In this document: piece after piece, positions 8,846 to 60,949 of the stretch
Layout: every line of letters starts with the position of its first letter
Position numbering within the stretch: the stretch's first letter is position 1
DNA from: Styela clava
Lineage: Eukaryota > Chordata > Ascidiacea > Stolidobranchia > Styelidae
DNA length: 64,000 nt
Assembly: GCF_964204865.1 (NCBI RefSeq)
Contig: NC_135260.1
Span: 19,080,001-19,144,000 of the forward strand
Reading direction: 5' to 3'
Made by a program: the position numbers and the translations under genes
Notes under the pieces: model-generated
Database searches by the model: none
Told to the model about the DNA's origin: nothing
What the model saw: only the letters and a program-made list of their open reading frames with translations

Positions 8846-9270
8846 ATTTCCACAACACACAGAATATAAATCTTATAACATTTATCCAGACTAGCTTAGA
8901 ATGGTTTACATCGTCTTCTCTCTCCCTATCGAAAGATATCGGAGTCGTATTTATACGTTGAGCATAAACCTTATTAAATACTGTAAACGTGAGCTCGTGA
9001 TTCACGTTATAAACAGAAATTCCTATTATCTCAACAAGGGTAATTAGGTACATCGTACGGATGGGAACTTAGATATAATTATTTCAATCAGTGCCAAAGG
9101 TCTTGAGAATATAGATTTTAATTTGATAATGACTGGATGGAACCTGTTATGTTCTTAAACCTGGTGTAATTTGATTCCTACGAAAGTCTTTGTTCGAATT
9201 TTGGGAAAAATTAACTGTGTTTTCATATTTTAACATGAAATGGGGTACATTTGGGGGTTAGTTGCTATAT
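8846..9270 (+). repeat. 425-bp direct repeat, left copy
   Basis: This segment recurs at 10621-11045 with a constant offset of 1775 bp, no indels and two mismatches, both within the first 12 bases. It contains no recognisable TIR or TG...CA ends. It encodes a 75-codon chance frame on the minus strand that appears in both copies. Confidence 0.95.
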
Positions 9271-10620
9271 TATCTCCCCATCTTACTAACTGGAAGTTTA
9301 AAGATTTGGCACCCTCTAATAAAGTGGAAATATATCGAAAAATACAATACACAATGCTAAAATTAATGATATAGGTCAAAAAAATATTTACATGTATATG
9401 ATCTACAATGAGACACGACATTGAAATAAAGAAGAGTTTATAGAAAGAGTAAAGATTGTAAAGTAGAATTACAGAAGGATGGCGTATTTTTATTTAAAAA
9501 ATTTTGGTTTGGACGGTTAAAACATATTTTCAATTTAATGTATTTCGCTAAGTTAAAATACTTATACTCGCTTTATCGCATTGTTACGATTTTGTAGACC
9601 TAGTTGGTCAATATATGCTTGTCCCATGTCGGGAAGAAAAAACGCATTTTTAAGTTTATGCCATCTCAGGGCTTTTTTGAAAAAATAACGCTTTTGGATA
9701 CAATTTTTGTTTAATGAGCTTATTATTTCACCGTTCTATATGACGGCTTTGTAAATAATTTAAAGTATGACTCGCTCGAATCTACTTTTAGAAAGCATTT
9801 TAATTCCAACGAAATCTATTTAATCGAAAATGAATGTTAACCACAAATATTTAATAATATAAATCTCTAAAAGGTATTTGAAATTAAAATATTCAAAGTT
9901 GTTACCATTAATTAATTTATAAAAATTAAAAGTCGAATGAAACGCCATGTATATATAAGAAGAAAAAGAAGTACTTTACCTTAGTATTAGTGGAAGAATG
10001 AAAAATGTCTGTCTCAATGAGGAGAAAAACCTGCAAATCATGAAACAAATTGTAGAATTACATGCTCCTGATCTGTATATCCAATAGGTAAGCGCGACAA
10101 TTTCTCTATTGTTCGGAATAGAGCGCGTAATTTACCGTAAAACAGTCCATATAGTTCATTGTTTTCAACAGTTCGTTTTTGATTAGGTTTTTCACCTCGA
10201 ACATATATCATGTTCTAAAAGAGTTCATTTCGATCGATGTTCAATACAGTCCATATTCATGATTTTAACGTTTCCAGAGTCCGTTACCATAGTTCAACTG
10301 TTTTCAATTGAGATTATTGTCTTTTCATAATGTTTTTGATTATTTCGGCTTGTCAGCAATTTGCTACTTCAATCGTTGTTCCAGGCAATTTGAATGTCCT
10401 CGACGTTCGTAAGTTGGTCGAATTTGATTTTCGCACGTTTTGTATAGATGGTTTCTCGGCAATTGTTGGAAGCTTTCGCTTGGTCTGTTTTTTGGTTGAT
10501 TCCTTCCAATTGTTGCTTGTTGTCCGTTGATCTGGTCCGTTTCAGAAGGTTAATTCAAGTCGGCTTTGTCACCATTTATAGCATAAATAATGGGTAAATT
10601 CTGTTTGATTTTATTCTCAG

Positions 10621-11045
10621 ATTTCCACGATACACAGAATATAAATCTTATAACATTTATCCAGACTAGCTTAGAATGGTTTACATCGTCTTCTCTCTCC
10701 CTATCGAAAGATATCGGAGTCGTATTTATACGTTGAGCATAAACCTTATTAAATACTGTAAACGTGAGCTCGTGATTCACGTTATAAACAGAAATTCCTA
10801 TTATCTCAACAAGGGTAATTAGGTACATCGTACGGATGGGAACTTAGATATAATTATTTCAATCAGTGCCAAAGGTCTTGAGAATATAGATTTTAATTTG
10901 ATAATGACTGGATGGAACCTGTTATGTTCTTAAACCTGGTGTAATTTGATTCCTACGAAAGTCTTTGTTCGAATTTTGGGAAAAATTAACTGTGTTTTCA
11001 TATTTTAACATGAAATGGGGTACATTTGGGGGTTAGTTGCTATAT
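10621..11045 (+). repeat. 425-bp direct repeat, right copy
   Basis: Near-identical to 8846-9270 by direct reading. Both copies stop abruptly after gttgctatat, where the flanks diverge. The 1350-bp spacer between copies is unrelated AT-rich sequence. Confidence 0.95.
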
Positions 11046-14000
11046 GATAACTCTTCTGTCAAAACTTAAGTCACAAAAGGTTTCCTTGCATGTTTTTGAC
11101 TTCCAGGGCGTGATCCCTTCCGTATATTGCATTCTGAAAATCGCGCGTTAATAATTTTACCAATATTATAGGACTCCGTTGTGCGATGATGTCAAGATAG
11201 TATTTGCTTCGCCATTAGAAAGACAGCATCTATTCGTCAATAATGCACGTGCAATATATACTTACCGGAAAGCATAGAAATCTGGTATCTCACCTTACCG
11301 ACAAGCAGGGCCGGTGTGACTAAATGGGGTTTGTTTTGAGCTAATCATTGCCGTGATATTAGAATAGATATTAGATCAAAAGTTGCAGTAAGACAATAAA
11401 TTAAATAACGTCAATTATCTTCCGACGCTTGTGACCTGTGTGTATTTTGTTCTATTAAAAATTCCATTAAACGTTTCGTTTCATATTGAATTTTATATTC
11501 ACCTATTTGTATAAGCAACAGAGTAAACTCGCGGCGATATCCCAACCACATGAGGTGTTCTTATCTCCCAAAGTTTATTGGGTTAGACCGGGTGTATACC
11601 CTGATCAAATATGAGAAAATCACAACGTTGTTATCTGTTGTATATGCTTGATCAGACTTGGAAATTGAAAGGCGAATTGGGATGAAATAAGAAAACTCGT
11701 ATGTACACGATATAGGTGAGACCAAGGTGTAAACCACAAAAAAAACTAGCAACATACAATTTGTGAAGTATTAACAGCATTGCTTATAAGATTAACTTAA
11801 TGAACTAGTATCAATTGTTCTTAAGTATAATCTTCCCGCTATTTCATGACTCGAAAGAATAATGTCATAGTAAACAATCTAATCTAAATTCCTTTGGTTT
11901 CAAACGATTACTGTTTTAAAACATTACAAAAAAAATCTATTAGATCGGGAACTAATCGAGTTTGAGCAGGATAAATCAGATGGCAAAACGGGCTTTGACC
12001 GATTATGGTACCTTTGCAGATTCAGAAGTGACTGGTTATATACAGGGTGGGCCAAAAATGTTACATATATATATATATGCGTACATTGCTTTTCGTTATG
12101 GATTGAAGCAATCCTTTCAAAGGTGCAAAACCCGTGATACGAAAGGGAATTGAGCATTTTCGTTCAATTTAGTTCGTATTTTCAAGTTCGCGCCAAAAAA
12201 AAAAAATCGCAACCAAAGGTAACTTTGGCGCATAATCTGCATCCGAACGTACATGCACCTAATGTAATTAGTTCACCGCCACGAGGTTTTGTGTTTGCTC
12301 TGAATTGTGTTTTTTTCTCCACGAAAATCAAATCTATTTTCGCAAAAATATCTCCAGTTTTTGTAAATTTGTTCTGCCAAATATCACAATTCACGAACGA
12401 TTCAACTTTGTCGAGCCACACCTCTGGATAATAAATCGCGTAAACCGCCAATGATTGATAAGAAGAAAAATCAAACAAACTCTTTATAATTTAATTATCT
12501 TGTCAAATAATGTGAGAGAATTTTTATATTGTCGGGCAGAAAAACATATTTGCACAATCTCATTTGAATCCTTTGTGAAACATTGTGTGTACATTATTTC
12601 AACCTGTTCAACAAACAGTCTCACCCTATAAATGAGTTTTTGGGTGAAAATTGTGTTGCCGAGACCAGAAGAGTTCTATATATTATAAACTATAGAATCA
12701 AAAAAAGTATCTAAATTGCAGCAAGGTGCAAGGTATTTGAATATATCACACACGTATGCCTAAATGAGTTTCACATATGCGCACTCCGAGTATATATAGA
12801 TTACACGTATGTATGGAGGAAATTGCTTAAAACAAATGTATTTTTTATTCAAAGGTTGTGTTCGAAAGTCGCGATTCCATCCTAATAAATCGAATGTAAC
12901 GTTGTAATTTTTGTACAGGCCTTTCGATTCATTACGTACAGGCCCGTAGAAGCAATACCGCTTCGAAGTTGATAACAGTAAGACTCAAAATTATTGAGAG
13001 TTTTAAAAAGCTTCTCCTTCGCGATAAAAGTTGTAAGTCGATTTCTTACGCCTTGAGCCAATGTCGATAGTATCGGCTCAAACAATTTTCGATAGCACTT
13101 TTAAATATACATAAAAACTACATAAGTTGTTGTAAAATATGTTTTATTCAGTATATTAGAAAGTGTACATTACGATATAAGATATAATATTGTTCTGAAA
13201 CTTGTAATTGGATCAAATCAGGAAAAAAAGGAAAGGTGTTGGATGGAAAAATTTCGGTCAAAAAGTGACCTGATATGGTTCGATTTTATTACATTCTGGT
13301 CAAAATAATTATGGCGAATTACAAATATCATGATTCAGTACACAATTGTAATAAAAACAATTTCAAAAATATTTTACCAAATGCGGAATGGCTGTGAAGC
13401 GTTAGCATAGAAAATAGCAAAAATGATTTAAACTGAATTGCATTGCAAAATACACTTTTCGTTTAAAACCTGATTTTCTGGTTCATGGTATTATATGGTT
13501 ATGACGTGGAAGTGAGAGAAAATGCAATATATGTAATGAGCGGATAAGTCCTGAGTTTGCCTTGACCACAAACCATTTCATTATTACGATAAATACGGTT
13601 TTAGGTTTTTGATATTTCAGATCGAACTATCATATTTTTGCTACCGTATTGCCGCACACATTACGGGGTCGCAGTAATACTAAGCCATGAAAAGAGAATT
13701 AGCTAGTTATAAGAGAGTACCACGAAAGTAAAACGTACATTGTACAAATTAGACCAAGGTACCGCAAAGCAGTTAATATTCGCATTTCCTACGCATCCTA
13801 CGCTCGAAAGCAGCGCTATAGCAAACACAGTATTGAATATTATTCAACTTGGCATGTTTAATCGTATGAGCACGAAAATCCGTACAAGTTTGTGTTCCGT
13901 TGCCAACATATTCTCAGGCACAATGTAAAAAAAATTCTTTGCGTGAAAGTTATTTTGTCGTGTAAGGGCGGACACCTCAAACGCACTGAGAAACAATGGC

Positions 14001-15470: not shown

Positions 15471-15742
15471 TTAGTTTTTACAATGAACGTCGATGAATTG
15501 ATGGATTAAACGCCTTTTTATACCGACCTTCTTTTTCCTAATTAGTCCTCGAAGCAAAGCACCAGCAACACATGGAGCATACATGACAGCAATCACCCAC
15601 AGAACTGAATTTGGTTCACCGACAGCTTCTGCGTTTTTTCCCACTGCAAGGGGGAAAGCGCAGCATGCCAAAAAGCTTAAACTTGCGTTACTAAAACATC
15701 CAAAAAGTCCTTGCTTCCACATTTTGCTTCTTTCAAGTAATG
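15471..15742 (-). CDS. PLAC8-domain protein exon (partial)
   Basis: The minus-strand frame carries WKQGLFGCFSNASLSFLACC, then FPLAVGKNAEAVGE and RGLIRKKKVGI. This follows the order of the PLAC8 / cornifelin / cell-number-regulator domain (W..GLFDCF..., ...G+NAE..GE, R.K.GI). PLAC8 proteins are small, Cys-rich, usually membrane-associated proteins of poorly defined function. An acceptor (tctactttgtag) ends just before 15742, so at least one exon lies upstream. After KKKVGIK the frame departs from the family and ends at 15471 without the expected C..CALxQ..RE block. Either a weak donor near 15533 leads to another exon that I could not find, or this is a truncated copy. Cysteines are fewer than usual. 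Confidence 0.6.
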
Positions 15743-17059
15743 CTACAAAGTAGATGAACAAAAATCAAGATGTAATGACTGAATATCTAACTCTGTATTA
15801 AAATAGAGAATTGATAACTTGATAAATGTCTTCGTCAGGGATGAATAGCATATCAGGGCGAGGCATAGTATCTTGGACAAATTCAATTTTTGACGATGTT
15901 AAGTCAATATTGGGGTAAATATAACTCGGCAAACATTTCGTAAACGTTTGGTTTAGCGGTCGATGTATTTGCCCATACTATGTAAAATATTGTAAGCGTT
16001 GGGTAAGAATATCGTTGTGTGAATTTTAAGCTTTCTTCATTCATGATATATAATTAAATTCAATCTTAATTAATTGAAATTAATTGATAATGTATGCAAA
16101 ATGCACGATGCAATAATTCAACACTTTTCAAATAGACGCCCATTCTAAACCAAGACATCAATGTTCAAATATATGGGTTGGTAAACCCCTACATCGCTGA
16201 GTTTGGTGAAGAGATCAACGGACAAGAAACACGGATGCGGTCGAGCACTACTACACAACAAGTGTTCCCCTTGAATAAGAATAAGACAGCAAAGTTTTGG
16301 TTAAATATCGGGTACTCTAGGACTCTAGGAAATTAAAAAAGTAGCGACAACGACAACGGTTAGCAAAACGAACATGAACAATTCGTATCCGATAAAGCAA
16401 GATCAGTTTTTAGTTTTAGCAGAATATTTCTCATACCATTCCGTATGTGCGAGTGGGCTAATATTGTGAATCAGTGACGAGAAATCGAATCCGTATCATG
16501 ATCTAAATGTCGGAAGCGTTAGCGTGATTGTCTTAAACAGCGTGACAGCGTTAACTCATGTCACATTTTGACGTATAGCTTGACCATATGTTCGTTGAAA
16601 TGACCATTAATAATCTAATTCTTCAAATATGACAAAAAAAAACGAAGAATCATTGCACACAATTCAAATTACTAGAAAATTAACCGTTTGAAAGTAAAGC
16701 AAATCAAGCTAAATAGAACTAACATAATCGTCCTTTTGTGGAATGAACAGTATTGGCCAAAAGCAAGTCGCGAGTGTAGAAAAAGCAGTTGTGGGGTCAC
16801 AAAAGATTGCTGAAGCTTCGGAGCCCGGAGATTTTGCAATTCAAATTTTGATTTACATTGCCTCAGAGTACACATTTACGTGACAGCTCAAACAATGTTA
16901 ACTTGTTTATTTGGTCCTACTGAAGAATATGGATTCCACCCAATCAAGGCTCCTTGCGACCTTGCAATGTAGATCTCATTCAACGAATATCATAGTTCAT
17001 ATTAAACCTTTGTACACAAATCGTAAATATGCAACAATATAAAATAATTTTGTTCAAAG
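15743..17059. other. No supported gene; presumed upstream/intron of the PLAC8-like gene
   Basis: I found no first exon for the PLAC8-like gene here. Open frames are short and lack recognisable motifs. Confidence 0.35.
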
Positions 17060-24700: not shown

Positions 24701-26260
24701 GTTGTTTGTTAGTTAGAAATGTGGTCTCATCACCTATACTCGCGTTAAGGTTTTAATTGTATTCGGTATCTGTTATTTGGTTCAATTCGATATTGCAACT
24801 TTACAATATATATACGAACATTTGACGTTATAATTCAATATGTGCTTATTTAACCTCTGAAGGAGTCAGTTGGGGTTTACTCCGCTAAAGTACGTTGAAT
24901 AATACTGGAGAAGAATACCAGATATAAGGACGACCCGTCTTATCCCTACAGTTGAATTAAGTACTTTATATTGTGGGCATAAATAAGTATTATACTATAT
25001 TTATAATAAGGAACTAGGGAATATTAGTAATAGGCAACTAATACAGCAACTACAAAACAAAAGAGGATTTCCTCTCCGGTTGAGAAACGTGGTTTTAAAT
25101 TTTCAATTACTAGTAGTACTTCTCGGATAGGTTTGAGCTTACTTTTTAAATTCCATCCAAACTTATTTTGTCATATATGATCATGAAATAATTGTACATT
25201 AACGTCTAGTAAATAAATAAATATCTTCAATATAAAGAAGCAAATCATTAGCCTATCAACTGATGATTGAAGAAAACAGACGAAATAAACCCTGGAGCGG
25301 CAGGCCCAAATGTATGAATACGTGAAAATGAACAAATAAAATCAATTAAACTGTATGTCAGATGTTCTTGATTTATTTGTTGGACATAATAAGCGTTGTC
25401 ACATTCAAGCTACAATCCTGTTTCCAAAAACTGTCGACTTATATGGTGTTGAGGGTTATCTACGGCAACCCATCTATGAAGCATCTGACCAGTAAGCACA
25501 TTGACTCGTTTGCTACTAGTCGTTGCAATTGTTGGGAATAGACTCAAATATATAGTAAGTTTTAGACTTGCAGTAATAGAACCTGGGTGTGTGATAGTTA
25601 AATCACTCACATCACCATTTGTGTCGTTGCTTGTATTAGGTTTTACGACGATTCTGATGCTAATTGTGCATCACTAAAAAGCACCAGCAGCGGGTCACTA
25701 TGTCTCAATGCATTGTTGAACACGAAGACGTTTTGCGTAGTTCAAATTGTTGTAATTCTTTTTGTTGTTTAGATTGTTGGAAAAATCCTTATTTGTTGAT
25801 TGAAAAGGTATTTTTCGTCACAAAAAAAACTTTTTTGGAAAAAAATAAAAACTCAAATTTCGATTTCCTGGAATGATACTTTATCTCTCTCCAGGTGTGA
25901 TTATTTGTTTAGTCTGAAAAGTTCATATCGTAGCAAAACTTACAACTTTCATTTTAATTTTTCAATTTTATTGTATATATATATAGGCATTTTTCAATAA
26001 AGAATTTCGTGCAGAACAAACCATATGCGTCATAAATTATAGTACCGATATTAAAGACTGCAAAAATAACAGTGCGGCGGCAATGTTTATCGAGTTGTTA
26101 TTTCCATAGAAATTGCTGTAACAATGATATTAATGAACCACACGCTGCACCAACGTAATCCACTAAATTATATTAAACAAAGCAAATAAAAAAGATTCAA
26201 AAGAGACAATATATACACATGGTTTATATATAAAAGTCATTCAACATCATATATCGATTC
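21793..26260. other. No supported gene; one hAT-like end
   Basis: Apart from the hAT-like terminus at 23571-23610, I recognise nothing. The frame at 24465-24677 (-) has a protein-like composition but no family resemblance that I know. Confidence 0.35.
23571..23610. mobile_element. hAT-like terminal fragment
   Basis: Reading inward from the right end on the minus strand gives cagtgttttccaactcatgg followed by gtcacgaccca. This is the common hAT end pattern (CAGTG.TTTCCAA, then a GGGTCGCGACCC-like block). I could not place the opposite end, so this is a remnant. Confidence 0.5.
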
Positions 26261-26356
26261 TTAGTCAACAATGTTGACAGCAATGTAGATTAGCAACAGA
26301 AGACCGATAATAACTCCAACGTTGATTGCCATTTCACGGATTTCTCGAACATCCAT
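26261..26356 (-). CDS. 31-aa single-pass membrane micropeptide
   Basis: The minus-strand ORF starts MDVREIREMAINVG, continues with a ~17-residue hydrophobic helix (VIIGLLLLIYIAV) and ends NIVD. The short charged N-terminus, one membrane span and a very short tail match the architecture of SERCA-regulating micropeptides (sarcolipin, sarcolamban) and of other tiny membrane subunits such as OST4. I cannot assign it to any of these. The gene structure supports a real transcript. A perfect donor (gtaagtaag, 26451-26443) and an acceptor (tttacttag, next to 26359) define a 92-nt intron that ends three bases before the ATG. Thus exon 1 is 5' UTR and exon 2 holds the whole coding region, as in several vertebrate micropeptide genes. 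I saw no AATAAA immediately downstream. Function unknown. Confidence 0.6.
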   Translation of the reverse strand: MDVREIREMAINVGVIIGLLLLIYIAVNIVD

Positions 26357-26452
26357 TTTCTAAGTAAAATGTATCAAAAAGTCACTGTTATAAAATTAGG
26401 TACAGTATATATGTTTCAAGTATATACGAATTATAACAAGCTCTTACTTACT

Positions 26453-26520
26453 TTTGTCACAGACTTTACTGACTATGAATAGACAATGGAGATCAATAAA
26501 TATCTTCGTCGTTACAACTA
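26453..26520 (-). other. Probable 5' UTR exon of the 31-aa micropeptide gene
   Basis: The minus-strand exon ends ...gtctgtgacaaaa immediately before gtaagtaag. Its 5' limit is not visible. A TATA-like tttaaattttataattc lies further upstream (about 26546-26562), so transcription could begin near 26520. Confidence 0.4.
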
Positions 26521-28178
26521 TAATAAATATGATAGCTGTCTGAATTATAAAATTTAAATCAAACATTTCGTAACTTAGAGGTAAGTTAATTCATTTAACG
26601 AACATAGGACAAGACGGATGGAAAAACAAATTTTGTTTTGGATATCTCATGCTGATGCGATAAGATATTGTTCCAAAAATGCAGGGATAAGATTTGACCA
26701 GTGACCAAAAAAATTGCAACTTTATCGTTAATAGGACCTAAAAAATGTTTGACGTCATGATCGGCTGCTTGAAATGCATACCGAATTTTGATAAGTTAAG
26801 TTTGACAAAGAGAAAATGGTTCAAAAATACTTTAAAGAAATACATTACTTTACTACTATTTTGTTATCGACGGGGAGTTTTTAGCTAGCTATGTGTTTTT
26901 TTTTTATATATGAACTTCTGGTAGTGGAATTTATCTTAGTTGATTCCCCAGCATCATTTGTTTTGATTATTCCTTTTGTTGCGTCTGTCGTTATCTACTG
27001 GCATCTCTCTCGCACTCGCAGGAATAAATTTATACAGAGGGCTTTAGTGGTATGTGGTCCCTTCTATCACCATCAGTACCCTTTCTTTCTTTGTTGATGA
27101 CTCGCGAACTTACTTTGAGCAAACTTGCGTAAAACAACTGCAACTGATTTAACGGAGTTTCGGGCCTGCTAAACCAGGTTGATGAATACTAGCCTTAAGA
27201 AGAAACGGCATTGGGCTTATGGTGTACATATGTTACTTTTTTCATACGCAATGACGCCGAATTGATACTTTCAATTATTTTCAAGTTACGGCATAATGAC
27301 ACAATGTGATTATTTAACGACTACTCAATAACCAATACTTGCTATCCATACCAAGTATAACACTGTTCAATCAATTTTACTTTCAACTATATTCTCAATG
27401 TTTCTGAAACTCAATTCACTTAAAATCCATTTTAAATAAAATGATTATATCGCGGATTGATTCGCAAGCTGTTACACAGCCGAATTACACCTTATTTTTG
27501 GTAGTATATATATAACCATACAGAATATAATCTTGTTAAAACCTACAAACTGTAAATGACATGTACTGCTGGCTGACTGTCACCAACACATGATCTGCAC
27601 AATGTCTCAATTGCATTTGGAACTGACAAAAATAGAAATCCATATAACCTTCATTTTAAAGTACGATATATATTTGGGCCAGCTTTAAACAACCAGCCAT
27701 ATGCAATTATGGAACACAGTTCGCATATGCATTGTACATCATTATACTCTGCAGAGTCAAGATTTAAAATACGCTACTATTATAAAAACTCAGTAATGTT
27801 ATGTAAAATGTTACCTTATACCAGCCACCACTCTTCGATAGGACGAGCTCCATATATATATATAAAGGCACGAAAAATTACCATTCGGCATTTTACAGGT
27901 TTTTTTATTGCTTCTCTTGACGTGTATCAGGCGCAGTTGTGCCATCTCCTTGGGGATTACACCAAACTGCTTTATATTATTATAAAACCATTAACCTAAT
28001 CAACTCAAAGCATTGGCGCCGATTATATCTGTAGTCAAACTAGACGGATCAACTCTCTTGTAAATATATTCAAAATATATTCTATTATAGAAAAGTACAT
28101 TTATCACTCCATATTCCGTAGCATTTTCTATATATATATATATGCTATATTCGCTCAGTCAATAAAATAATAATAATT

Positions 28179-28334: not shown

Positions 28335-28590
28335 GACCTGTAATTTCATCGATATACTTCCTAGATTTAGTATCCAGGAAGCTTTACTGTGGAACCATCA
28401 GGTATGCACCAGCTAAATGATCTTGTCGCAAACAAACCAAAAACACGTGAATATGTTCTGTTACATCGAAAAGCGACCGTACATTTTCTACACTTTCGGG
28501 TTCATCGTTATCCCGAAAAGCCCCGATCTTGTCCTGAGAAGAATTATACGTACAGCATCCCGCTTGGTCACCAGCACAAGTCGGTTATGG

Positions 28591-29010
28591 TATAGGATAT
28601 TGGGTAATTTTGCTGCTTTTGGTTAAGTTACGTGTTTAGACTTAAAGTCATACTAATCTTAAAATTAGAAGCAATCTCTCAGTCATAAAATACGTAACAA
28701 TTAGACGTCCGGTAAGGTACGATGACGATAACGCGTCATGCCCTAAGGATACCAAAACCAGCATAAAAGCGACCAATCGTTAGGAGAGAAGAAAAGGATA
28801 ACGATGGACAAGTAATTAACGAACTCGGGCTTGCAGTGAAACTTTGATTTTATGTGACTTATCAGTCATGACTTGGAACTGTTCTTTGTATTTGTAAATA
28901 TACAATTGCAATATATGTATTCGGTACCAGGAGTATGTCTTCTTCATAAGATCAGATCAGAAACAACAGCAATACAGAAATAATAGCAAAAAGTACAAAT
29001 GTTCCCTAAA
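28591..29010 (+). mobile_element. LTR-like repeat, copy A (apparently solo)
   Basis: This 420-bp sequence recurs at 49762-50180 (nearly full) and 48331-48662 (left end missing) with only scattered differences. It starts tataggatattggg and ends gttccctaaa. The copy at 48 kb is followed directly by a primer-binding-site-like sequence, which is why I call it an LTR. Here the flanks carry atgg on both sides (28587-28590 and 29011-29014), a possible 4-bp target duplication of a solo LTR. The ends are not the usual TG...CA. Confidence 0.6.
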
Positions 29011-29262: not shown

Positions 29263-31833
29263 TTCATAATAGGAGTAATTTATAAGCACCCAAGAAAAGA
29301 TATTATTCAGTTTACAAGTACCATTTCTAATGTATTAGATAGGTTGAACCGGGACAAAAGATTATTCATTTTGCTAGGAGACTGGAACATTGATTTATTG
29401 GGCCAATCGACAGATTTGGCCACTATGAAATATATAGATACGCATCTTGCCAATTTGTCATTGCCCTTAATTACAAAATCAACAAGAGTGACTCGCACCT
29501 CCAGCACACTAATCGATAATATTTTCACCAACGCCATAAACTATGATTTATCGAGCTTTGTTATTTTAACTGATATAAGTGACCATTACCCACAATTTTG
29601 CACCGTCTCTACTCCAATATTTACAAGAAGACAAAATCAAATTTTCAGGCGTGATATGAGAAATTTCTCTATTGATATGTATAGATCTGACATAGAATCA
29701 TCTATCCTCCCAATATCAAATTGCCAAATTACATGTGATAATTTAAATATTTTATTTGACTCATTTGTAGCAATTATTAAATCGAGCATTGATGCTCACG
29801 CACCAATAAAACCATTGAGTCGGCATAAAACTAGACTTCTAGCCAAACCTTGGATAACCAAGGGAATTCGTGTTTCAGTTAAAAGGAAACATAAAATGTA
29901 TAAAACTCACTTCAAAAATGGTACTAACACGCAATATAGAACGTATAAAACTTATAGCAATTTACTGGCAGTTCTCATAAACAAGGCCAAAAAAATATAC
30001 TACTTCAATAAAATTAAACAGGTCAGTGGTGATATTAGATCCACTTGGGACCTAATTGGTCGAATAGTTAACATCAAAAAAGAGAGAACGCCAGTGACTG
30101 CGATAAAAACAATAAAAACTGATAATGGATCGAGGGTAAATGATCCATTATTAATCGCCAACTATTTTAATGATTACTTCACTTCTATAGGCCCGAATCT
30201 CTCTGAAAAAATCCCCCACATTGAGGGATCTTTTTTGAGTAATCTTAAGAACCCTATAAAAAAATCTCTTTTTCTTAGACCGACAACTGTTAACGAAATA
30301 TATACCACTATAGCGAGCTTATCTGATGATAAAGCAGTTGGTTATGATAACATACCAGCAAAATTCTTAAAATATGCTGCTGATATAGTTTCTCCCATGA
30401 TGTGTAAACTATTTAATGCTTCCATAGACTATGGTATATTCCCAAATTGTTTAAAAATTGCCAAAGTCTCACCTGTATACAAGACAGGAGATAAAGAATG
30501 TGCATCGAATTATCGCCCAATATCGGTTCTTTCTACGATGACTATAGTTTTTGAAAAAATTATACATAGTAGGCTAATCCAATTTATAGACCAACATAGC
30601 ATCATAAACAAATCACAGTTTGGATTTCAAAAAAAGCATTCTACTAACCATGCAATGCTTGATATGGTGACTCATATTTATGACAAGATAGAGAGAAAGG
30701 AATACATTAGTGCTATTTTCCTTGACCTCAAAAAGGCGTTCGACACTGTCGACCATAACATTCTAATAAGAAAGATGAGCCACTATGGTATTCGCGGTCA
30801 CGCGTTGACTTTTTTCAGGAGCTATTTGAGTTCACGTCAGCAATGTGTTAAATTTGGTTCGAATTGCTCCAAACTCTCTACTGTACAATGCGGAATTCCA
30901 CAAGGATCGATCATTGGACCGATAATGTTTATTCTATTTGTCAATGACCTTCCTCATGCCACTAAATTACTTGTCAAACTCTTCGCTGACGATACCGGTT
31001 TGTTTGGAAGTTCAGCTTCGCCAAACGACTTGGAATTGCGGATGAATTCTGAAATGCAAAAAATTGCAACCTGGATGACCATAAATAAACTCACCATAAA
31101 TATTGAAAAATCAAAATGCTTATTAATTAGTCCCAGGATAAATGAAAAAAATAAAATTCGGCTTCAAATTAATATTGACAAGGTTCCACTTGAAAATGTC
31201 AACTCATACAAATACCTAGGTATCCACATTGATGACCAATTGAAATGGACATCCCACATTAATTACATTGCTGGAAAGTTGTCAAGTGCAACAGGTTTAT
31301 TATTTAAACTAAGAAAATTCCTCACCATGCCAGCTCTCCGATTGGTTTATTTTTCTCTTTTCCAGTCGTATCTGCAGTATGGCATTATAACTTGGGGTAG
31401 TGCGTCATCGACTCTACTCCACAGATTAGAAGTTTTGCAAAACAAAGCAATTAGAGCCATATGTAGTGCACCTTTCCGATCTAGACTAGATCCTTTGTAC
31501 CACAGGTGTCGAATTATTAAGCTTGGTCATATCCATGAATTTGAGATACTGAAACTCATGCACCAGTACTTCGATAACAAGCTTCCCATGGCATTCGCGG
31601 GAATTTTCAGAATGCAGAGTAATATCCATTCATACTCTACTAGATCAGCTTCGTCAAGTTCATATTATGTCCCAAGATATTCATCAAGCAGGACACAGAA
31701 ATCCATAAAATACACGGGTGTGAAACTGTGGAATGCCTTACCAAGTACCATTAAATCTTTAGGCTATTACGGTTTCAAATTATATCTAAAAAGTAAATAT
31801 ATTAGTTATTATCTCTCTTCCATCAGCCATTGA
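29263..31833 (+). CDS. LINE ORF2: partial AP endonuclease plus reverse transcriptase
   Basis: The frame is open from 29263, just after an in-frame TAA, to the stop at 31833, about 856 residues. There is no ATG start because the protein is truncated; the residue at 29344 is TTG. Order of domains: the tail of an endonuclease/exonuclease/phosphatase fold (GVIYKHP, LLGDWNIDLL, TLIDNIF, ISDHYPQF); an RT domain with YRPISVLSTMTIVFEKII, QFGFQKKHSTNHAML, AIFLDLKKAFDTVDHNIL, GIPQGSIIGPIMFILFVNDL and the catalytic FADD box near 30980; then a C-terminal region with YKYLGIHID and LEVLQNKAIRAI. The catalytic aspartates are intact. Such proteins nick target DNA and prime reverse transcription of their own RNA. 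This copy lacks the N-terminal half of the endonuclease and any ORF1, so it cannot be autonomous. Confidence 0.9.
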   Translation, partial: FIIGVIYKHPRKDIIQFTSTISNVLDRLNRDKRLFILLGDWNIDLLGQSTDLATMKYIDTHLANLSLPLITKSTRVTRTSSTLIDNIFTNAINYDLSSFVILTDISDHYPQFCTVSTPIFTRRQNQIFRRDMRNFSIDMYRSDIESSILPISNCQITCDNLNILFDSFVAIIKSSIDAHAPIKPLSRHKTRLLAKPWITKGIRVSVKRKHKMYKTHFKNGTNTQYRTYKTYSNLLAVLINKAKKIYYFNKIKQVSGDIRSTWDLIGRIVNIKKERTPVTAIKTIKTDNGSRVNDPLLIANYFNDYFTSIGPNLSEKIPHIEGSFLSNLKNPIKKSLFLRPTTVNEIYTTIASLSDDKAVGYDNIPAKFLKYAADIVSPMMCKLFNASIDYGIFPNCLKIAKVSPVYKTGDKECASNYRPISVLSTMTIVFEKIIHSRLIQFIDQHSIINKSQFGFQKKHSTNHAMLDMVTHIYDKIERKEYISAIFLDLKKAFDTVDHNILIRKMSHYGIRGHALTFFRSYLSSRQQCVKFGSNCSKLSTVQCGIPQGSIIGPIMFILFVNDLPHATKLLVKLFADDTGLFGSSASPNDLELRMNSEMQKIATWMTINKLTINIEKSKCLLISPRINEKNKIRLQINIDKVPLENVNSYKYLGIHIDDQLKWTSHINYIAGKLSSATGLLFKLRKFLTMPALRLVYFSLFQSYLQYGIITWGSASSTLLHRLEVLQNKAIRAICSAPFRSRLDPLYHRCRIIKLGHIHEFEILKLMHQYFDNKLPMAFAGIFRMQSNIHSYSTRSASSSSYYVPRYSSSRTQKSIKYTGVKLWNALPSTIKSLGYYGFKLYLKSKYISYYLSSISH

Positions 31834-34381: not shown

Positions 34382-37300
34382 TCAGCCAGGCTTGGTTTTG
34401 TAGTTGGTGTAGTAAAGGCAATAGTCATGAAGTTGAGCTACTTGCTTATCCAAGCATTTATAACCATCTATGGAAGGTCCTCCAATTTCATCCCAGACGG
34501 TGCGATCAACAACAGATTGCTGCAAAAAAGTAAAAAAATTTAGAAACAACAGAATTCGGCAGTGGGGATTCATGTGTAAGATTTTTTGCTTCAAAATAAT
34601 AGTTGGCTTCAATAATTTTTTTGAATTATCAGTCAATGACATGAATTTAGAGTCTCACAAAATCGTTAATGGTGATGGATTCTACATATACACTGGTAAA
34701 TAGTACCCGAACTTTTTTGTATTATCATTATGTAAATAACTACCTTTATGTAAAGAACTCGTGAACATTACCATCATTAAAAAAAATGTAAAATACGACA
34801 AAAACATATACAGTGATATCTAGGTTAGTTGATCAAAATTCGTTCAGGATTGGTGTTTGACTACCGATTTGTTTCAGTACCGAAACTTTTTTTGTCATAC
34901 GATATAATCGTAATTATTCCAATTCGTTCTTACGCATTCCAAATAAACAAAACGAGTACCTAATCAACAATGATTATTCAAATTTTTTCATAATAAAGAT
35001 TAAACCTAATAAAGATGAAAAAATAAAAAAATTTTCGATCAGTTTACTGTACGTTTGAGCAATCTTTTGGTCTACCACCGAATTGAGTATCGAGACGTTC
35101 AACTACCGAGGTATCAATGTACATAGTTTATTCAACAAATTTTTATCTATATGAATTGCTTATTCATTAGAAATAGGTCGTATCGTTTATTTCCTGTCCT
35201 AATCTTTACTCAAGACTACACAGAGCACAACTCAATTTTTAACTTACATAGTTAACAAACAATGTCATAGTAAATCTTCCAGGCTTAAATATCTCAACAA
35301 TCATTCCAATCAGTTTCGAAAAAAGCTTCTTAGAAATATTGGTTTCGAAACTAACATAAGAAAACTCAGGTTCTGGTGTCACATGAATTGTCCAATAACG
35401 ATTCTGAAAAATGAAGATTGTTAACTGATCAGTTTGTGTTGAGGTTGCCATGGATATGGACCACAATTTGAAATTGTACAAGTGGGAAAGGATTTACGAA
35501 TTTATCCAGGGTGATGGGCGGGGAGGGAAAGACGAAAGGATGGCATATTCATATGACGAACCACAGCCTCTCATCCTGTTACCAGTCCAGGTTTGGTATG
35601 GGATTAGTTAGTCGGTTATTTGGTTGCGGAAGCATGGACTTGCTGGTGGAGGAAGCCATAACCGTCAGCGGTTACGTGAACCACACTAAGGAGGCGAAGA
35701 GTCTAGCAATCTTCTCACACATGATCATTCTCGCATGGGATTTGAACCAACGCACCCACGCAGGGTAATCAGAGATGCGGCGGCAAGCGTATTCCTTACG
35801 CTTAGCACCATGTGCTACACCGCCTAGTAGCATCGAAGTTGAAAAAGTAATATTCAACAAAACAGAATTGACATCAGAAAGGTTTTCTTAGCAATATAAT
35901 GAATGTGCCCTTACTACATTACATTTTCCTCTCGACTTAAACTTTAAAACACTCTTTTTATTAAGCATTTCGTTGACATGAAGGCAATGAATATTATAAA
36001 CTGGGATATCCACATAAGAACCGTTCGATACATAAAATTGAGTCCTAATACATTTCAGATAAAGCGAGTGCCTAATTCTAAGTGCTAATTTCAGTCTATC
36101 CTTGTAACTAGGTTTGAAATGGTTTAAAAAAAACTATACTTTTTCCAGTAATCCATTCATTGAGAATCCACATGGTTCAAAAAATTCAGCACTTATCTGA
36201 GATCCTGGTATAAGATCTGAAATACCACTTTCCTGGAAAAATATTTCTGTATTAAAATTTTGACCTAAAATCTTATTATCTCATATGTTATTTGTACATT
36301 GAATTAGGAATAAAACATAGGATAAATAAAAAAAATGATCAAATGATGGTGGAAATGAAATTTACTATTTCAAATTTATTTTGAATATAAAACACAAATA
36401 TTTTAAATTAATAGAAAATCGTGAAAACTATGAAATCACATAAAAGCTTGCAATTTCTTTTGTTTTGACTCATTTTCTCTGTTATTGCGCAAAACCTGAA
36501 TTTTGAAACTTACCCTTGAAAAAACATCAGGAGACTTGGCAACACCTTTTTTATCGTATTTATTGAACATCTTCATGACATCTGGGTCCAGATCAACCAT
36601 TAGTATTTCCAATGTTTGATCTGGTTCCTGAACACCAACTAATGAATTATTCGATGCATGATTTAATGTATATAGGAACCAACAGTCTCCATTCAATCTA
36701 CCAAGACAATATGCAGCACTCGATTCTGTTGAAAAATACAGATAGTACAGATACAATATATTTTTGTCCATCTGAGCTTTCTATCCGCATTCCTGTAGTA
36801 CTAGAACTAGATTAATGTCTGGGAATTAAGAGGTCCCCTTGTCAGCGAAATTTTAATGCTAAAAGTTGATTTTCGAGCACTTTCACAATATGGATTTCCT
36901 ACTAATCTTTTCCTGGAGATAACTTAAATTGACCCATGTTAATCGATGTCTATCTCCAACAGAGAAAGAATAGGGAGTCTAGTGGTAACTCAAACTTTCC
37001 TATTCAGCAATCTTTCAAATTTTAGTTCTAAGCAGAATACTAGCATAATATGTAAATGAATAGTTTTGATTTATTTGGTATTATTATTTCGTGATTAAAC
37101 CTTTATTGAGATTACTTTTAAAATAAAAACAGTGCAATTGTCTCAGAAAACTACGACTTTTGGTAATCATTGAACATCTTTCTGTGAAAACACATACATG
37201 GAGAAAGGAAAAAAAAACCGTCTAACCTTTGATTTCATTGTCAAGAAACATAACTTCTTGTTGGAACGTTTTATGAATGTGAGGTTGACGATCAGGTTTC

Positions 37301-40300
37301 ATGAAATTTTTGCGGGAATAAAAGAAATCCTGTAATTAATTGGTAAGAGTTACCGAAGTCAGGTTTTATTAATGGACGTGTCAATCATAGGAACCAAACT
37401 ACTTGTAATACATTGAAACTACTTTGAATATTTGCAAGCATTCCCGATTCAGACATAAAGTTTGACAATTTTTTGTTTGGTTTTCAGTGCAGCAGGAAAT
37501 AATATCGTGAATTTGAATTGTTCGGCACTACTTCCTTGAAGTATTGATAAGAGTTGAATGTCATTCAATAAGGATTCTCAATTTTTTTTGATGCAATTTC
37601 ATCTATAAAAATAATAATGCAACATTTCTATTGTTTGCAGCCATAGTTTTTGAAACTATATCTTGCATTCTCTTTGAATAAAGTTATTAGTGATATCACT
37701 ATGAATATCATAGGAAATAAACTATCTTACAGCAATCCTATCCAACCCGCATTCAGTTTTTGCAAGTCTGACAATATGAGGAAGTGCTTGCAGACATAAT
37801 GTTGTACCACAAGTCTTCAGAATCACTCGATTTTTCGAAACAAACAAACTGGATTCACTAGAAAACAAGAGAGCAATGCTCAAATATATTCACACGAAGG
37901 TCAAATATGGCTTAAAATCAGTGGTTATCATTCAATCACTAAAGCAATTCATATCTGTGTCTGCATGGGCTTAGCTGAGCACAAAACTTCTTTTCAAAAC
38001 CCATCCAAAGTATAAAATTATTACAGCAAAACAAGACAAACTAAAATTAACATAATAGCATAGCAAAAGCTGCCATACACAGCTAAATATAAAAACAGTA
38101 ACACAAATATTAATAAATCGGGCGTTCAAACAGTAATAACTTACTTCCTTTCATAACCATTGAATTTACATATTTAGGAAGTTAATCAGCAATTTATGCG
38201 ATTGATTATTTATTAAATATATTGATGCTATATGGATATACAGGTCCTTCATCCAGGCCTGTTACAAACTATATTACACCATTACCAAAGTAGCACCAAG
38301 ATGCATCCAACTATTGACTAAAAAACAGTTGAGATAAATTTTAAAGATCTACCGTATTTTACAATAAAGGACATAACTCGCTATGAAAGTTTTCAAATTC
38401 GAACCAATTATGCCTGGCCAGACATTCAAGTGTCATCATAGTACCAGCAGTATAATATCTGAACTATTGTGATGCTTGATGTGATAAATGTCTCAGTCAC
38501 ATTACAAAGCAATATACAGATATAATGTTACCAAATACCTCAGTAGATATGCAGTATGATCATTGTGATGTATCACATCCAAAATTTCACATTTGACACT
38601 TTTTAATATTTCCTCCCATTTCTCCCTGAAAATAGATTAAATTACCATGTCACTATACACAATTTCAGATAGGATTAGAAGAAAGATGCAATTACACCAA
38701 TTTGGTACATAAATCTAAGTATAAGTTTATTTTGACTCCATAACCAATATAATTAGACAATAAAATAATTGATAAAAACAAAATAAATAAAACAGATTGT
38801 AGTTCACTCAACCAAAAGTATTAAATTTCAAATTAAGTAAAGCATGCACACACACATTCAATCATGAAGACATAATAAAATTAAAAAAGTGAAAAAGAAA
38901 CATTTTTGCCACACCATATTAATAATTTTGCCAAATTCGATCCCGATTTAGTTAACAGGAATGATATATATTGAAAAATATTTCTTAAAAGATAATGTCA
39001 AGCTGATTATAGTTGGAGTCTCCTAATGCTGTAATGTTAAATTGAAGTCCAGATTATATCATATATTATCAATCATCAGTGAAAGTAATTATGATTAGTT
39101 AATGCAGTATGATACTGAGGGAGGGTAATAGGTTATGTGAATATATATACAGATATAGGTTATTATAGGTTAGGGGTCTCAAACTCAATTTACCTGGGGG
39201 CCGCCGAGACAGAGCCCTAGTGAGTCCGGGCCGCATCAGGTTTTTCACAATAAAAGCATTAACCTTAAAAAGTTAAATCTTTCTCTTTATTTTTCTATAC
39301 GCAAAACATGTCAAAAACATAAATGTAAGTAATTTCACGATGGCCCTTTCCCCGAGCATCTACTTCCTTGTTTATTCCGTAACATTGGCTAATCAGCAAG
39401 ACGCAAAAAGTGACGTAACAATAGACTTTTTCGCAAACGCTCAATCACTCAGAAAGATTTTCAGGCATGTTTGTAAACATTACCTCGTTTTTGCATGCTA
39501 TTTGTTAGTTTTGGGTTGTGTTTCAGAAATTCAAGTATGAATCAAAGAACTCAATGATGATTCTGATTGCTTGGGCGTCGTAGCTTAATTGCAGTAATCA
39601 AAAATTAGTCTAGAAATAGCTGTGATAGACTAGGCCAAACTTCTCCACAGGTACTGTTGAAAAACAGGTTGTAGAATGTTTTGAATCAAAATGATGACGT
39701 GAAACATATACCCCAGTTTATAGGCTTCAACTCACGAAGCCACCTCTAAAATAAGCTTCGAGAATTTGCAGGTGAGGTATAAGAAAGTTTTCTTTGGGGT
39801 CAAAGGTCCATCGAATATCATGCCTACAGGTACGGTACTAGTAGGTTACCGTATCGCATATGCCTTTCGGGGGATAGATTATAAAATATTTTGTTTTCCT
39901 CTACTTGCTGACTTGTCCTGATCATATATTGAATGCATCAATCATTCTAACCTAGCTGAGTGACTTACGGGCCGCACTAACATTAAACTTTCATACCAAG
40001 GCGGGGGCCACAAACTATCGTCCTGCGGGCCGCAATTGGCCCGCGGGCCGCGAGTTTGAGACCCTGTTATAGGTTCTAGCAAGGTTTCCCATTTGTAGTC
40101 CTGGATTATAGACAAGGAAATATAATTGAGGTTGTCGATTACTAGGTTCAGTTCAAATTTATCATAGATGATTTGTCATTCGTTGAAAAGTATAAATTTG
40201 GAATATTCCGATAACAATAGTTACCGTAGCTATTCAATTTGCTGATAGAAATCAGTAAACATAGCCCACATGAAGTAAGTCAAAATCAAACATTTACCGT

Positions 40301-40741
40301 ACTGCATAGACCATGTTTATATCTGGAAGCTGCGATTTGCAGTTCACAGATAAAGGATCAAATGAAATAAATATATCAACTTGGACTGATAACAGGACAA
40401 GAGGCTGTTTTTCGGCATTTAATTGAGCTGTTTTATGGTCTATTCTTTTCTTTGAGATGAATATGTAAATCCTATCCTAAATGAAACCATATTACTGTAT
40501 TAAACAATAATATCCGAATATTTCGCAGAACACAGCATAAAATGAAATATTGAATGTTAAAGGTATATATTGCAAAAAAAAAAGTTTGATATATTTGGGA
40601 ACATGGCAAAATTTGACACTAATAGACTAACCTGGAAATACTTCTTGCATCCCCAGACTCGTTGTTGTTCGAGGTTCTGGTAAACCAGATCTCCATAAGC
40701 TTTTCAACTCCCTCAAAGAAATGATCTCCTTCTCCATTCAT
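34382..40741 (-). CDS. AMD1: S-adenosylmethionine decarboxylase proenzyme, complete, eight exons
   Basis: The enzyme decarboxylates S-adenosylmethionine to supply aminopropyl groups for spermidine and spermine synthesis. It is cytosolic and self-cleaves to form a pyruvoyl cofactor. Exons (minus): 40741-40632, 38625-38539, 37857-37731, 37329-37227, 36725-36514, 36232-36140, 35403-35248, 34519-34382. All introns are GT/AG, phases agree, and the total is 341 residues (human: 334). Motifs in order: [30 protein letters not shown] with the Glu66/Ser67 cleavage site; LKTCGTT with the catalytic Cys81; [93 protein letters not shown]. An in-frame TGA two codons upstream fixes the start. Intron 1 holds a hAT element and intron 6 a SINE. 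A foldback transposon begins 117-131 bp upstream of the ATG. No uATG lies in the retained 5' flank. Confidence 0.95.
35549..35826 (-). mobile_element. tRNA-derived SINE, longest copy (SINE family 1), in AMD1 intron 6
   Basis: On the minus strand it begins ggcggtgtagcacatggtgc, has a B-box-like tgcgttggttcaaatcccat, and continues into a tRNA-unrelated body (gtggttcacgtaaccgctga, ccaccagcaagtccatgctt). It ends near gaccacag-like sequence at 35550-35570. Related copies lie at 4981-5121, 51087-51235 and 54725-54905, which show it is a dispersed family. Confidence 0.8.
39171..40066. mobile_element. hAT-type transposon in AMD1 intron 1
   Basis: The left end is taggggtctcaaactc and the right end reads inward cagggtctcaaactcgcggc. 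An exact 8-bp target duplication ttataggt flanks it (39163-39170 and 40067-40074). It is 896 bp and GC-rich at both ends (gggccgc blocks), with no transposase domain I can read. Part of its interior (39345-39620) is related to 50944-51350. Confidence 0.9.
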
Positions 40742-40869: not shown

Positions 40870-42309
40870 GGACGGACTAAAAGTAGGCACTTGCAAATTA
40901 GGCACTTTTTTAGGCACTTATTTAGGCACTTTGGAAAAAAAGTAAAAAGGGCGTAATACCTTTTAAAAACATAATTAATTAGTTAAAAATGGTCAAATTA
41001 AATGTTGAAAACGCAAATTGCAACGGGCAAACTCAATAACAATATTTAAAACGTAGTATTAAAGGCAGTCGCACGCGCTTGGTCACCACATATGCTAGGC
41101 ACAAAATTAGGCACTTCGAAAAATAAAGAAAATGGCAATTATCACTAATAAAAGACAGAGACATAAACATATTACCCACACTGATTAGCCTGGGTAAATA
41201 TCCAATAGATGCACTTGAGTCTAGTACTGGAATTTAGAAATAATAAATTGTTACCGGTAGGCACTTATTTAGGCACTTCGGAAAAAAGGTGAAATGGACG
41301 TAGTAACTCCTAAAAAGGTAATGAATTAGTTCAAAACATTTAAATTAAATGTTGAACGCGAAAATTGCAACAGTTAAATCCAATAACGATTTTTAAAACG
41401 TAGTATTAAAGGGAGACGCACGCGCTCTGTCACCAAGTATGCTAGGCACATATTTGGGCACTTCGAAAAATAAAGAAAATGGCAATTATCACTAATAAAA
41501 GACAGAGAAATAAAAATATTACCCACACTGATTAGCCTGGGTAAATATCCAATAGATGCACTTGAGTCTAGTACTGGAATTTAGAAATAATAAATTGTTA
41601 ACGGTAGGCACTTTTTTAGGCACATCGAAAAAAAGGTGAAATGGGCGTAATAACTTTTAAAATGATAATTAATTAGTTGAAAATTGTCAAATTAAATATT
41701 GAACACGCAAATTGCAATGGGTGAATCGAATAACAATATTTAAAACGTAGTATTAAAAGGAGTCACACGCGCTCGGTCACCACATATGCTAGGCACACAT
41801 TTAGGCACTTCGAAAAAAAGAAGAAAATCGGAATTATCACCAATAGAAGACAGAGAAATAAACATATTTCTTACACTGATTAGCCTGGGCAAATATCCAA
41901 TAGATGCACTTGAGTCTAGTACTGGAATTTAGAAATAATAAATTGTTACCGGTAGGCACTTTTTTAGGCACTTCGAAAAAAAGGTGAAATGGACGTAGTA
42001 ACTCCTAGAAAGCTAATGAATTAGTTCAAAATATTTAAATTAAATGTTGAACGAGAAAATTGCAACAGTTAAACCCAATAATGATTTTTAAAACGTAGAA
42101 TTGAAGGGAGACGCACGCGCTCTGTCACCACATATGCTAGGCACATATTTAGGCACATCGAAAAAAAAAAAATGGGAATAATCACCAATAAAAAAAAGAA
42201 AATAAAAATATTAGTCAAAATGATCAGCCTGGGCCTGGGTGAATATCCAATAGATGCACTTGAGTCTAGTAGTGGTATTTGAGAATAATAAATTGTTACC
42301 GGTAGACAC
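40870..42309 (+). repeat. Left arm: tandem array of ~346-bp units
   Basis: The tatgctaggcac block occurs near 41090, 41440, 41787 and 42135. The ggtaggcactt..ttaggcac junction block occurs near 41258, 41604 and 41950. Units differ by a few percent, and alternate units appear more alike (for example gggcgtaataac versus ggacgtagtaactcc), hinting at a higher-order dimer. Confidence 0.9.
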
Positions 42310-42507: not shown

Positions 42508-43932
42508 GAAGTGTCTAAATAAGTGACTAAAAAGTGCCTACCGGTAACAATTTATTATTCTCAAATATCACTACTAGACTCAAGTGCATTCATCGGATAT
42601 TCAAATAGGCTAATTATTTTGACTAATATTTTTATTTTCTGTATTTTTATTCATGGTAATTACCATTTTCTTTATATTTCGAAGTGTCTAAATATGTGCC
42701 TAGCATATGTGGTGACAGAGCGCGTGCGTCTCCCTTTAATAGTATGTTTTAAAAATCGTTATTGGGTTTACCTGTTGCAATTTCCGCGTTCAACATTTAA
42801 TTTAAATATTTTGAACTAATTCATTATCTTTTTAGGAGTTACTACGTTCATTTCACATTTTTTTCGAAGTGCCCACCGGTAACAATTTATTATTCCTAAA
42901 TTCCAGTACTAGACTAACGTGCATCTATTGGATATTTGCCCAGGCTAATCAGTGTGGGTAATATGTTTATTTCTCTGTCTTTTATTAGTGATAATTGCCA
43001 TTGTCTTTATTTTTCGAAGTGACTAAATATGTGCCTAGCATATGTGGTGACAGAGCGCGTGCGTCTCCCTTCAATTCTACGTTTTAAAAATCGTTATTGG
43101 GTTTAACTGTTGCAATTTTCGCGTTAAACATTTATTTTAAATATTTTGAACTAATTCAATATCTTTCTAGGAGTTACTACGTCCATTTCACCTTTTTTTC
43201 GAAGTGCCTAAATAAGTGCCTAAAAAAGTGCCTACCGGTAACAATTTATTATTTCTAAATTCCAGTACTAGACTCAAGTGCATCTATTGGATAATTTCCC
43301 AGGCTAAGCAGTGTGGGTAAAATTTTTAATACTCTGTCTTTTATTGGTGATAATTCCGATTTTCTTCCTTTTTCAAAGTGCCTAAATATGTGCCTAGCAT
43401 ATGTGGTGACCGAGCGCGTGTGACTCCTTTTAATACTACGTTTTAAATATTGTTATTCGGTTCACCCATTGCAATTTGCGTGCTATACATTTAATTTGAC
43501 AATTTTTAACTAATTAATTATCATTTTGAAAGTTATTACGCCCATTTCACCTTTTTTTTCGATGTGCCTAAATAAGTGCCTAAAAAGTGCCTACCGGTAA
43601 CAATTTATTATTTCTAAATTCCAGTACTAGACTCAAGTGCATCTATTGGATATTTACCCAGGCTAATCAGTGTGGGTAATATTTTTATTTCCCTGTCTTT
43701 TATTAGTGATAATTGCCATTTTCTTTATTTTTCGATGTGCCTAAATATGTACCTAGCATATGTGGTGACAGAGCGCGTGCGTCTCCCTTTAGTACTACGT
43801 TTTAAAAATCATTACAGTATTGGGTTTAACTGTTGCAATTTTCGCGTTCAACATTTAATTTAAATATTTTGAACTAATTCATTGTCTTTCTAGGAGTTAC
43901 TACGTCCATTTCACCTTTTTTTCGATGTGCCT
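42508..43932 (-). repeat. Right arm, first part: tandem array in reverse orientation
   Basis: The gtgcctagcatatgtggtga block recurs near 42698, 43033, 43391 and 43750, in inverted orientation to the left arm. The array stops at tgcct (43928-43932) and resumes at tgcct (50181) after the inserted block. Confidence 0.9.
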
Positions 43933-48331: not shown

Positions 48332-48662
48332 TCAGTCATAAAATACGTAACAATTAGACGTCCTGTAAGGTACGATGACGATAACGCGTCATGCCCTAAG
48401 GATACCAAAACCAGCATAAAAGCGACCATTCGTTGGGAGAGAAAAAAGGGATAACGATGGACAAGTAATTAACGAACTCGGGCTTGCAGTGAAACTTTGA
48501 TTTTATGTGACTTATCAGTCATGACTTGGAACTGTTCTTTGTATTTGTAAATATACAATTGCAATATATGTATTCGGTACCAGGAGTATGTCTTCTTCAT
48601 AAGATCAGATCAGAAACAACAGCAATACAGAAATAATAGCAAAAAGATAAATGTTCCCTAAA
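48331..48662 (+). mobile_element. LTR-like repeat, copy C (left end missing)
   Basis: Matches copies A and B from ctcagtcataaaatacgtaa to gttccctaaa. Its left ~90 bp are replaced by the inverted pol fragment. It is followed by a PBS-like sequence, identifying its right side as the U5 end of a 5' LTR on the plus strand. Confidence 0.7.
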
Positions 48663-60937: not shown

Positions 60938-60941
60938 TGCT

Positions 60942-60949
60942 ATGCAAAT
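60942..60949 (+). promoter_or_regulatory. Octamer (POU-type) motif just upstream of the glypican start
   Basis: atgcaaat is the exact octamer consensus, five bases from the ATG on the upstream side. It may lie in the 5' UTR and may be chance in AT-rich DNA. Confidence 0.25.

Follow-up and report, generated by a model that had tools for sequence, protein, structure and literature searches.

Does a 31-codon open reading frame (ORF) in the genome of the ascidian Styela clava encode a membrane micropeptide, and would such a peptide regulate the calcium pump SERCA as sarcolipin (SLN) and phospholamban (PLN) do? SLN and PLN are small brakes on the vertebrate muscle calcium pump, and ascidians, which are tunicates, belong to the sister group of vertebrates. 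SERCA micropeptides are known from both vertebrates and insects, according to the excerpts consulted of two accounts (PMC8396278, PMC4807881). The three vertebrate SERCA genes postdate the tunicate split, and tunicates have SERCA duplications of their own, as stated in the portion consulted of a third (PMC3527596). A literature search, thin in its coverage of subscription journals, returned among the matches listed no title on an SLN or PLN peptide in Ciona, ascidian, tunicate, chordate, amphioxus or lamprey, and none on a Ciona micropeptide.

The open reading frame and its genomic setting

The window, by which we mean the whole 64,000-nucleotide stretch of DNA that was analysed, contains on its minus strand at positions 26261-26356 an ATG ORF of 31 codons and a stop, which reads MDVREIREMAINVGVIIGLLLLIYIAVNIVD*. 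It was characterized by ORF reading, hydrophobicity, codon usage and a genome search. An earlier note on this DNA had described a 31-residue ORF of one-helix design here, and on re-reading the ORF, the design and the coordinates were all correct. The ATG lies at 26356 in the context AAAATGG. The encoded peptide contains no Ser, Thr or Cys and ends in NIVD, with Asp31 as its last residue; it also contains G14xxxG18, GxxxG being a helix-packing motif. A motif scan detected a TATAAA at 26223-26228 (minus strand), 33 nucleotides past the stop, which may function as a non-canonical poly(A) signal, and placed the start of the nearest downstream AATAAA at 25972. A protein-level search of the Styela clava genome (376,610,584 bases in 379 contigs) revealed a single copy of the peptide at E ≤ 0.001. 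Origin from a repeat or transposon was considered and rejected: within the window the locus matches itself alone, except for stretches of at most 43 bases, and the genomic protein match at E ≤ 0.001 is likewise the only one.

AlphaFold, given the single sequence as input, predicted one helix over residues 3-30 with a mean pLDDT of 96.8, a result that would be expected for any peptide of this type. Together with a hydropathy of 2.82 over 18 residues, this helix fits a single membrane helix preceded by a short N-terminus, in an orientation within the membrane that we infer.

Other genes and elements were recognized in the window. AMD1, which encodes S-adenosylmethionine decarboxylase, was located with the human AMD1 query as eight exons at 34385-40741 on the minus strand; splicing by hand gave a product of 341 aa that matches the Styela clava protein with 100% identity. 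The interval separating AMD1 from the micropeptide ORF holds a reverse transcriptase, LINE-like by reading, which occupies one uninterrupted frame of 856 codons (29263-31833, plus strand). A glypican-6-like protein is encoded by an intronless single open frame at 58625-60955 (minus strand; PF01153, E = 8.1e-120), and a PLAC8-family exon at 15471-15764 (minus strand; E = 1.2e-7) scored slightly below cut-off. An LTR-type element at 44946-48468 (minus strand) carries an ORF for an integrase (Integrase_H2C2, rve) and, after it, one of 666 residues that weakly matches herpesvirus glycoprotein B below the cut-off (gB; PF00606, E = 1.1e-7); judged by these ORFs, the element is possibly Ty3/gypsy-like with a gB-like envelope. 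Two mutually inverted tandem arrays (40911-42309 and 42531-43924) hold about four units of 347-359 bp each, with more copies at 50178-50587. Direct repeats of about 450 bp, found at 8820-9273 and 10596-11048 (97.8% identity) and at 28572-29010 and 49742-50180 (96.4%), are probably dispersed elements.

Hydrophobicity and codon choice

The micropeptide ORF ranked second by hydrophobicity among the 542 ATG ORFs of 20-70 aa in the window. Twenty simulated windows yielded eight equally hydrophobic ORFs, or 0.4 per window, and 170 kb of other Styela DNA yielded 10 among 1426 ORFs; in the latter, the six most hydrophobic among the matches listed were near-copies of one sequence. The peptide contains no Phe, and is unique in this among 25 hydrophobic ORFs of the window, 22 of the other 24 having at least two. 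Codon usage was trained on AMD1 and the glypican gene, and was scored for 463 small ORFs that overlap neither gene nor the masked elements. The micropeptide ORF ranked 13th of the 463 on full codon usage and ninth on synonymous choice only, and its true frame was the best of five, surpassing four shifted frames. Its codon choice is mildly coding-like. Hydrophobicity, codon usage and the splice signals described below are each, taken alone, modest evidence for the ORF.

Resemblance to sarcolipin and phospholamban

Pfam returned a sole match for the peptide, to Phospholamban (PF04272; 14 bits, E = 0.035, below the cut-off of 25 bits), in an alignment that lays PLN residues 26-49 over residues 4-27 and sets N12 opposite PLN N34. 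Sarcolipin (PF05366; cut-off 26.4 bits) was not matched, and the peptide thus lies below both curated cut-offs of the SLN/PLN family. For comparison, the score of human SLN on PF04272 is 16.2 bits and that of PLN on the SLN model 14.3 bits; the fly sarcolambans, MLN and DWORF match neither the PLN nor the SLN model. SLN and PLN are themselves barely closer to each other. Among the best 60 of 98 hydrophobic ORFs in the window, this ORF alone hit PF04272; the same set also gave hits to another six families, from one ORF each, at E values of 0.068-0.17. The statement in the earlier note that the sequence matched nothing familiar was, in view of the Phospholamban match, too pessimistic.

A profile was built from three sequences, human SLN, rabbit SLN and human PLN, and the micropeptide scored 10.5 bits on it. 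This score ranks it over SclA (7.2), SclB (2.4), MLN, DWORF and OST4, and the remaining 24 hydrophobic ORFs of the window scored at most 0.9. The similarity extends beyond composition: 10.5 bits was reached by 2 of 5000 shuffles in which the compositions of the N-terminus and the helix were kept apart, by 1 of 1854 simulated hydrophobic ORFs, and by none of the 1426 ORFs from the 170-kb sample of Styela DNA, the best of which scored 6.7. When 500 simulated windows were scored, 39 of 272,224 ORFs attained at least 10.5 bits; eight of the 39 were hydrophobic, and a single one had a mean hydropathy of at least 2.5.

Pairwise comparisons gave weaker evidence than the profile. Within-segment shuffles yielded p values of 0.016 against human SLN, 0/2000 against rabbit SLN and 0.0075 against PLN, and of 0.0175, 0.05, 0.336, 0.008 and 0.063 against SclA, SclB, MLN, DWORF and OST4, respectively. 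Out of 1112 simulated hydrophobic ORFs, 27 reached the pairwise score against human SLN, 2 that against rabbit SLN and 45 that against PLN; within the window, the micropeptide ranked second, first and third, respectively, against the same three proteins. Ungapped pairing places N12 opposite SLN N11, and an Asn therefore occupies the PLN34/SLN11 position in the Pfam and the pairwise registers alike.

Competitors elsewhere in the genome

A six-frame reading of the genome, in which the best candidates were scored, revealed nothing over the Pfam cut-off for PLN, SLN or sarcolamban. This empty list leaves room for the micropeptide ORF and proves nothing; divergent or intron-split genes would escape it. 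Below the cut-offs, PF04272 at E ≤ 10 matched 11 places with 15.2-21.2 bits, the query locus being absent from them, PF05366 matched three, and the sarcolamban model PF21898 matched two. Since the profile searches score the best candidates, the genome holds at least 16 such places. Thirteen of the 16 were read (eight of the 11 for PF04272, all three for PF05366 and both for PF21898). Four of the 13 are broken by stops (L009, L010, L011 and L034), and two, L012 and L013, contain an ATG ORF with a hydropathy of at least 1.9. L012 (C9:18201432; L012:1495-1611, plus strand) is an ORF of 38 codons that starts with MRRKSLQQQ and scores 18 bits on PF04272 (E = 0.84). Its SLN/PLN profile score is 12.1 compared with 10.5 for the micropeptide, and its hydropathy 1.96 compared with 2.82; its would-be helix contains Lys, His and Glu, and it is probably a chance match. 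L013, with 62 codons and a hydropathy of 2.31, scores 3.0 on the profile.

At whole-genome scale the SLN/PLN resemblance of the micropeptide is not significant: given 11 higher-scoring PF04272 places and L012, similarity alone is no proof in a genome of 376.6 Mb. Based on the one such ORF per 500 simulated windows, about a dozen equally SLN-like ORFs with a hydropathy of at least 2.5 would be expected by chance in 376 Mb, codon usage being left uncounted. The likeness to SERCA micropeptides that had been suggested for this locus is supported by the Pfam match, by N12, by the length of 31 residues and by scores that are rare in the controls, and falls short in genome-wide significance. Predicted proteins, when searched, yielded no relative with three shared 5-residue words, a result that says little for a peptide of 31 residues, short proteins probably being poorly covered. 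Searching the PDB with the micropeptide gave one match, VP1 (E = 2.2), that led nowhere, and Rfam and tRNA scans gave nothing useful.

It is a substantial possibility, though well short of an even one, that the ORF is a product of chance, an untranslated hydrophobic stretch of AT-rich intergenic DNA whose splice-like and Kozak-like signals are coincidental. Simulated windows contain about 0.4 equally hydrophobic ORFs each, the splice pair ranks 25th of 540 small ORFs, and the protein search found no homologue. The 11 PLN-model and three SLN-model places elsewhere, at 15-21 bits, also speak for chance; of these 14, 11 were read (eight and three, respectively), and four of those are stop-broken. 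Hydrophobicity and profile score are, on the other hand, jointly rare, being combined in 1 ORF of 500 simulated windows and in 0 of 1426 real ORFs, and both the coding-like codons and the standing of this ORF as the only Phe-free member of the 25 hydrophobic ORFs in the window argue against a chance origin.

Splice signals and possible transcripts

A possible GT-AG intron of 92 nucleotides, located in the 5' UTR, spans 26360-26451 on the minus strand. Its donor is AAA/GTAAGT, the final base of the exon being 26452; its acceptor is TTTACTTAG/, read across the junction as CTTAG/AAA, with the first base of exon 2 at 26359 and the ATG three bases further on. The earlier note had inferred from this junction a two-exon gene with a strong donor and a strong acceptor. 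The coordinates of the junction and the position of the ATG are right, candidate splice sites are present, and the donor merits its description; the acceptor does not, and at 25th of 540 in a chance control the pair is statistically ordinary, some such pair being present for 210 of the 540 small ORFs in the window. (The splice matrices, scales and thresholds in our scripts were textbook values.)

In the ATG frame of the unspliced sequence, the first stop upstream is the TAG of the acceptor itself. With the intron removed, reading by hand finds an in-frame TAG within exon 1, its first base 27 nucleotides 5' of the ATG, with no ATG between the two. Spliced or unspliced, an upstream in-frame TAG thus leaves the peptide without an upstream extension. 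The possible first exon (26452-26565, minus strand) contains no complete ATG by ATG scan; the closest ATG upstream of it starts at 26566 and ten others lie within 26594-27073, for a total of eleven in the 841 bases upstream of the micropeptide ORF. Hydropathy and the ATG scan also identified a second hydrophobic small ORF, of 40 codons (26444-26566, minus strand), that spans the proposed donor and is a possible uORF. To judge from these positions, a transcript starting below 26566 would carry no upstream ATG. A second AAA/GTAAGT donor, found by motif scan at 27108-27113 (minus strand), could pair with the same acceptor at 26359, and splicing from 27113 could bypass all of the upstream ATGs. 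An intron-less or a trans-spliced transcript is also conceivable.

Trans-splicing would place a spliced leader at 26359, with the coding region real and the supposed exon 1 an outron, and is compatible with other readings of the ORF. Removal of the outron would discard the eleven upstream ATGs and the 40-codon ORF, and an acceptor only three bases 5' of the ATG suits this arrangement; trans-splicing and operons are, moreover, reported for the tunicates Oikopleura and Ciona in the source excerpts consulted. However, a GTAAGT donor lies upstream at a normal distance, and our literature search found no Styela clava spliced leader. We consider trans-splicing at this site conceivable, though less likely than not.

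Comparison with known small membrane peptides

Like SLN (PF05366; PDB 1jdm, 3w5a), the micropeptide has 31 residues, a short polar N-terminus and one helix, and the two share an ungapped R-E-[LM]-x-[LI]-N register with Asn at the SERCA contact position. In this register Tyr24 stands opposite SLN Trp23, and the micropeptide is one residue longer before the helix and one residue shorter after it. Vertebrate SLN, in the portion consulted of PMC6011225, keeps Ser4 and/or Thr5 from fish to mammals, equids excepted; Arg27 and Tyr31 occur in mammals only, most other vertebrates having Lys27 and Glu/Asp31. The acidic last residue of the micropeptide recalls this Glu/Asp31 of non-mammalian SLN (PMC6011225, same portion), and falls in the ungapped register on SLN residue 30. 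Unlike SLN, the micropeptide has no Ser4/Thr5, no RSYQY-type tail and no SLN Pfam match. The phosphorylatable Ser/Thr that the SLN/PLN family carries at the N-terminus is thus missing, and since the peptide contains no Ser, Thr or Cys at all, control by phosphorylation of the PLN/SLN type is excluded by its sequence.

The resemblance to the PLN transmembrane domain (PF04272; PDB 1zll) consists of residues 4-27 on PLN 26-49, with IN at I33-N34; unlike PLN, the micropeptide lacks the cytosolic helix and its phosphosites, and scores under the curated cut-off. The fly sarcolambans, whose sequences were confirmed by Pfam, are of the same size class and single-helix design. In contrast to them, the micropeptide does not match PF21898, the model for sarcolamban membership, and SclA and SclB carry Thr opposite N12 in alignments. 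OST4 is also a tiny single-helix protein, and Y-[VI]-A-V-N closes the helix in both. Identity with OST4 was rejected: the micropeptide has no PF10215 match, and a clear Styela OST4 is present at G000:C9:19923734 (E = 7.5e-14). The proposal that the peptide might be a tiny complex subunit was tested for OST4 and found no support there, the OST4 of this genome being elsewhere. Although many small subunits would be suited by a single-pass helix with a charged N-terminus, the peptide has the helix-packing motif G14xxxG18, and some within-segment similarity exists to DWORF (p = 0.008) and OST4 (p = 0.063), it is improbable that this is a genuine membrane micropeptide with a partner other than SERCA, be it as a small subunit or as a different regulator of ion transport, with OST4 encoded elsewhere, no Pfam family matched besides Phospholamban, and the SLN/PLN profile placing the peptide above SclA, SclB, MLN, DWORF and OST4.

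Proposed function

The reading that we prefer is that a Styela clava gene, single-copy as far as searched, would be transcribed and translated in muscle into a 31-residue tail-anchored micropeptide acting like SLN and PLN. By analogy with these peptides, the charged N-terminus (residues 1-9) would be cytosolic and a helix of approximately residues 10-29 would cross the ER/SR membrane. Asn12, at the position of SLN Asn11 and PLN Asn34, would then face Thr805 of SERCA and lie against M6 of the pump. The micropeptide would occupy the M2/M6/M9 groove of the pump and reduce its activity or its calcium affinity. In the part consulted of PMC8396278, the contact of Asn34/Asn11 with Thr805 is described as critical to inhibition.

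We place the probability that the ORF encodes an SLN/PLN-like SERCA regulator, a reading drawn by analogy, a little below even. A more specific version is more tentative, namely that the peptide is a tunicate SERCA inhibitor of the SLN/PLN family that retained both the Asn contact and the SLN design of 31 residues and is missing the phosphorylation sites, so that the SLN-type peptide would predate the vertebrate SERCA duplications. The micropeptide is a good, if unproven, candidate for a tunicate SERCA regulator; we do not claim SLN/PLN membership for it, because its scores lie below the Pfam cut-offs. The sarcolipin-like interpretation is plausible and better supported than the earlier note supposed.

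The proposal concerns a concrete ORF, for which orthologs could be sought directly in the published genomes of Styela plicata and Botryllus schlosseri. If the peptide is expressed, the SLN/PLN family would be extended to the nearest relatives of the vertebrates. If the interpretation is true, a tunicate SLN/PLN-like peptide would bridge the insect and vertebrate peptides and reveal which parts of their design are ancestral.
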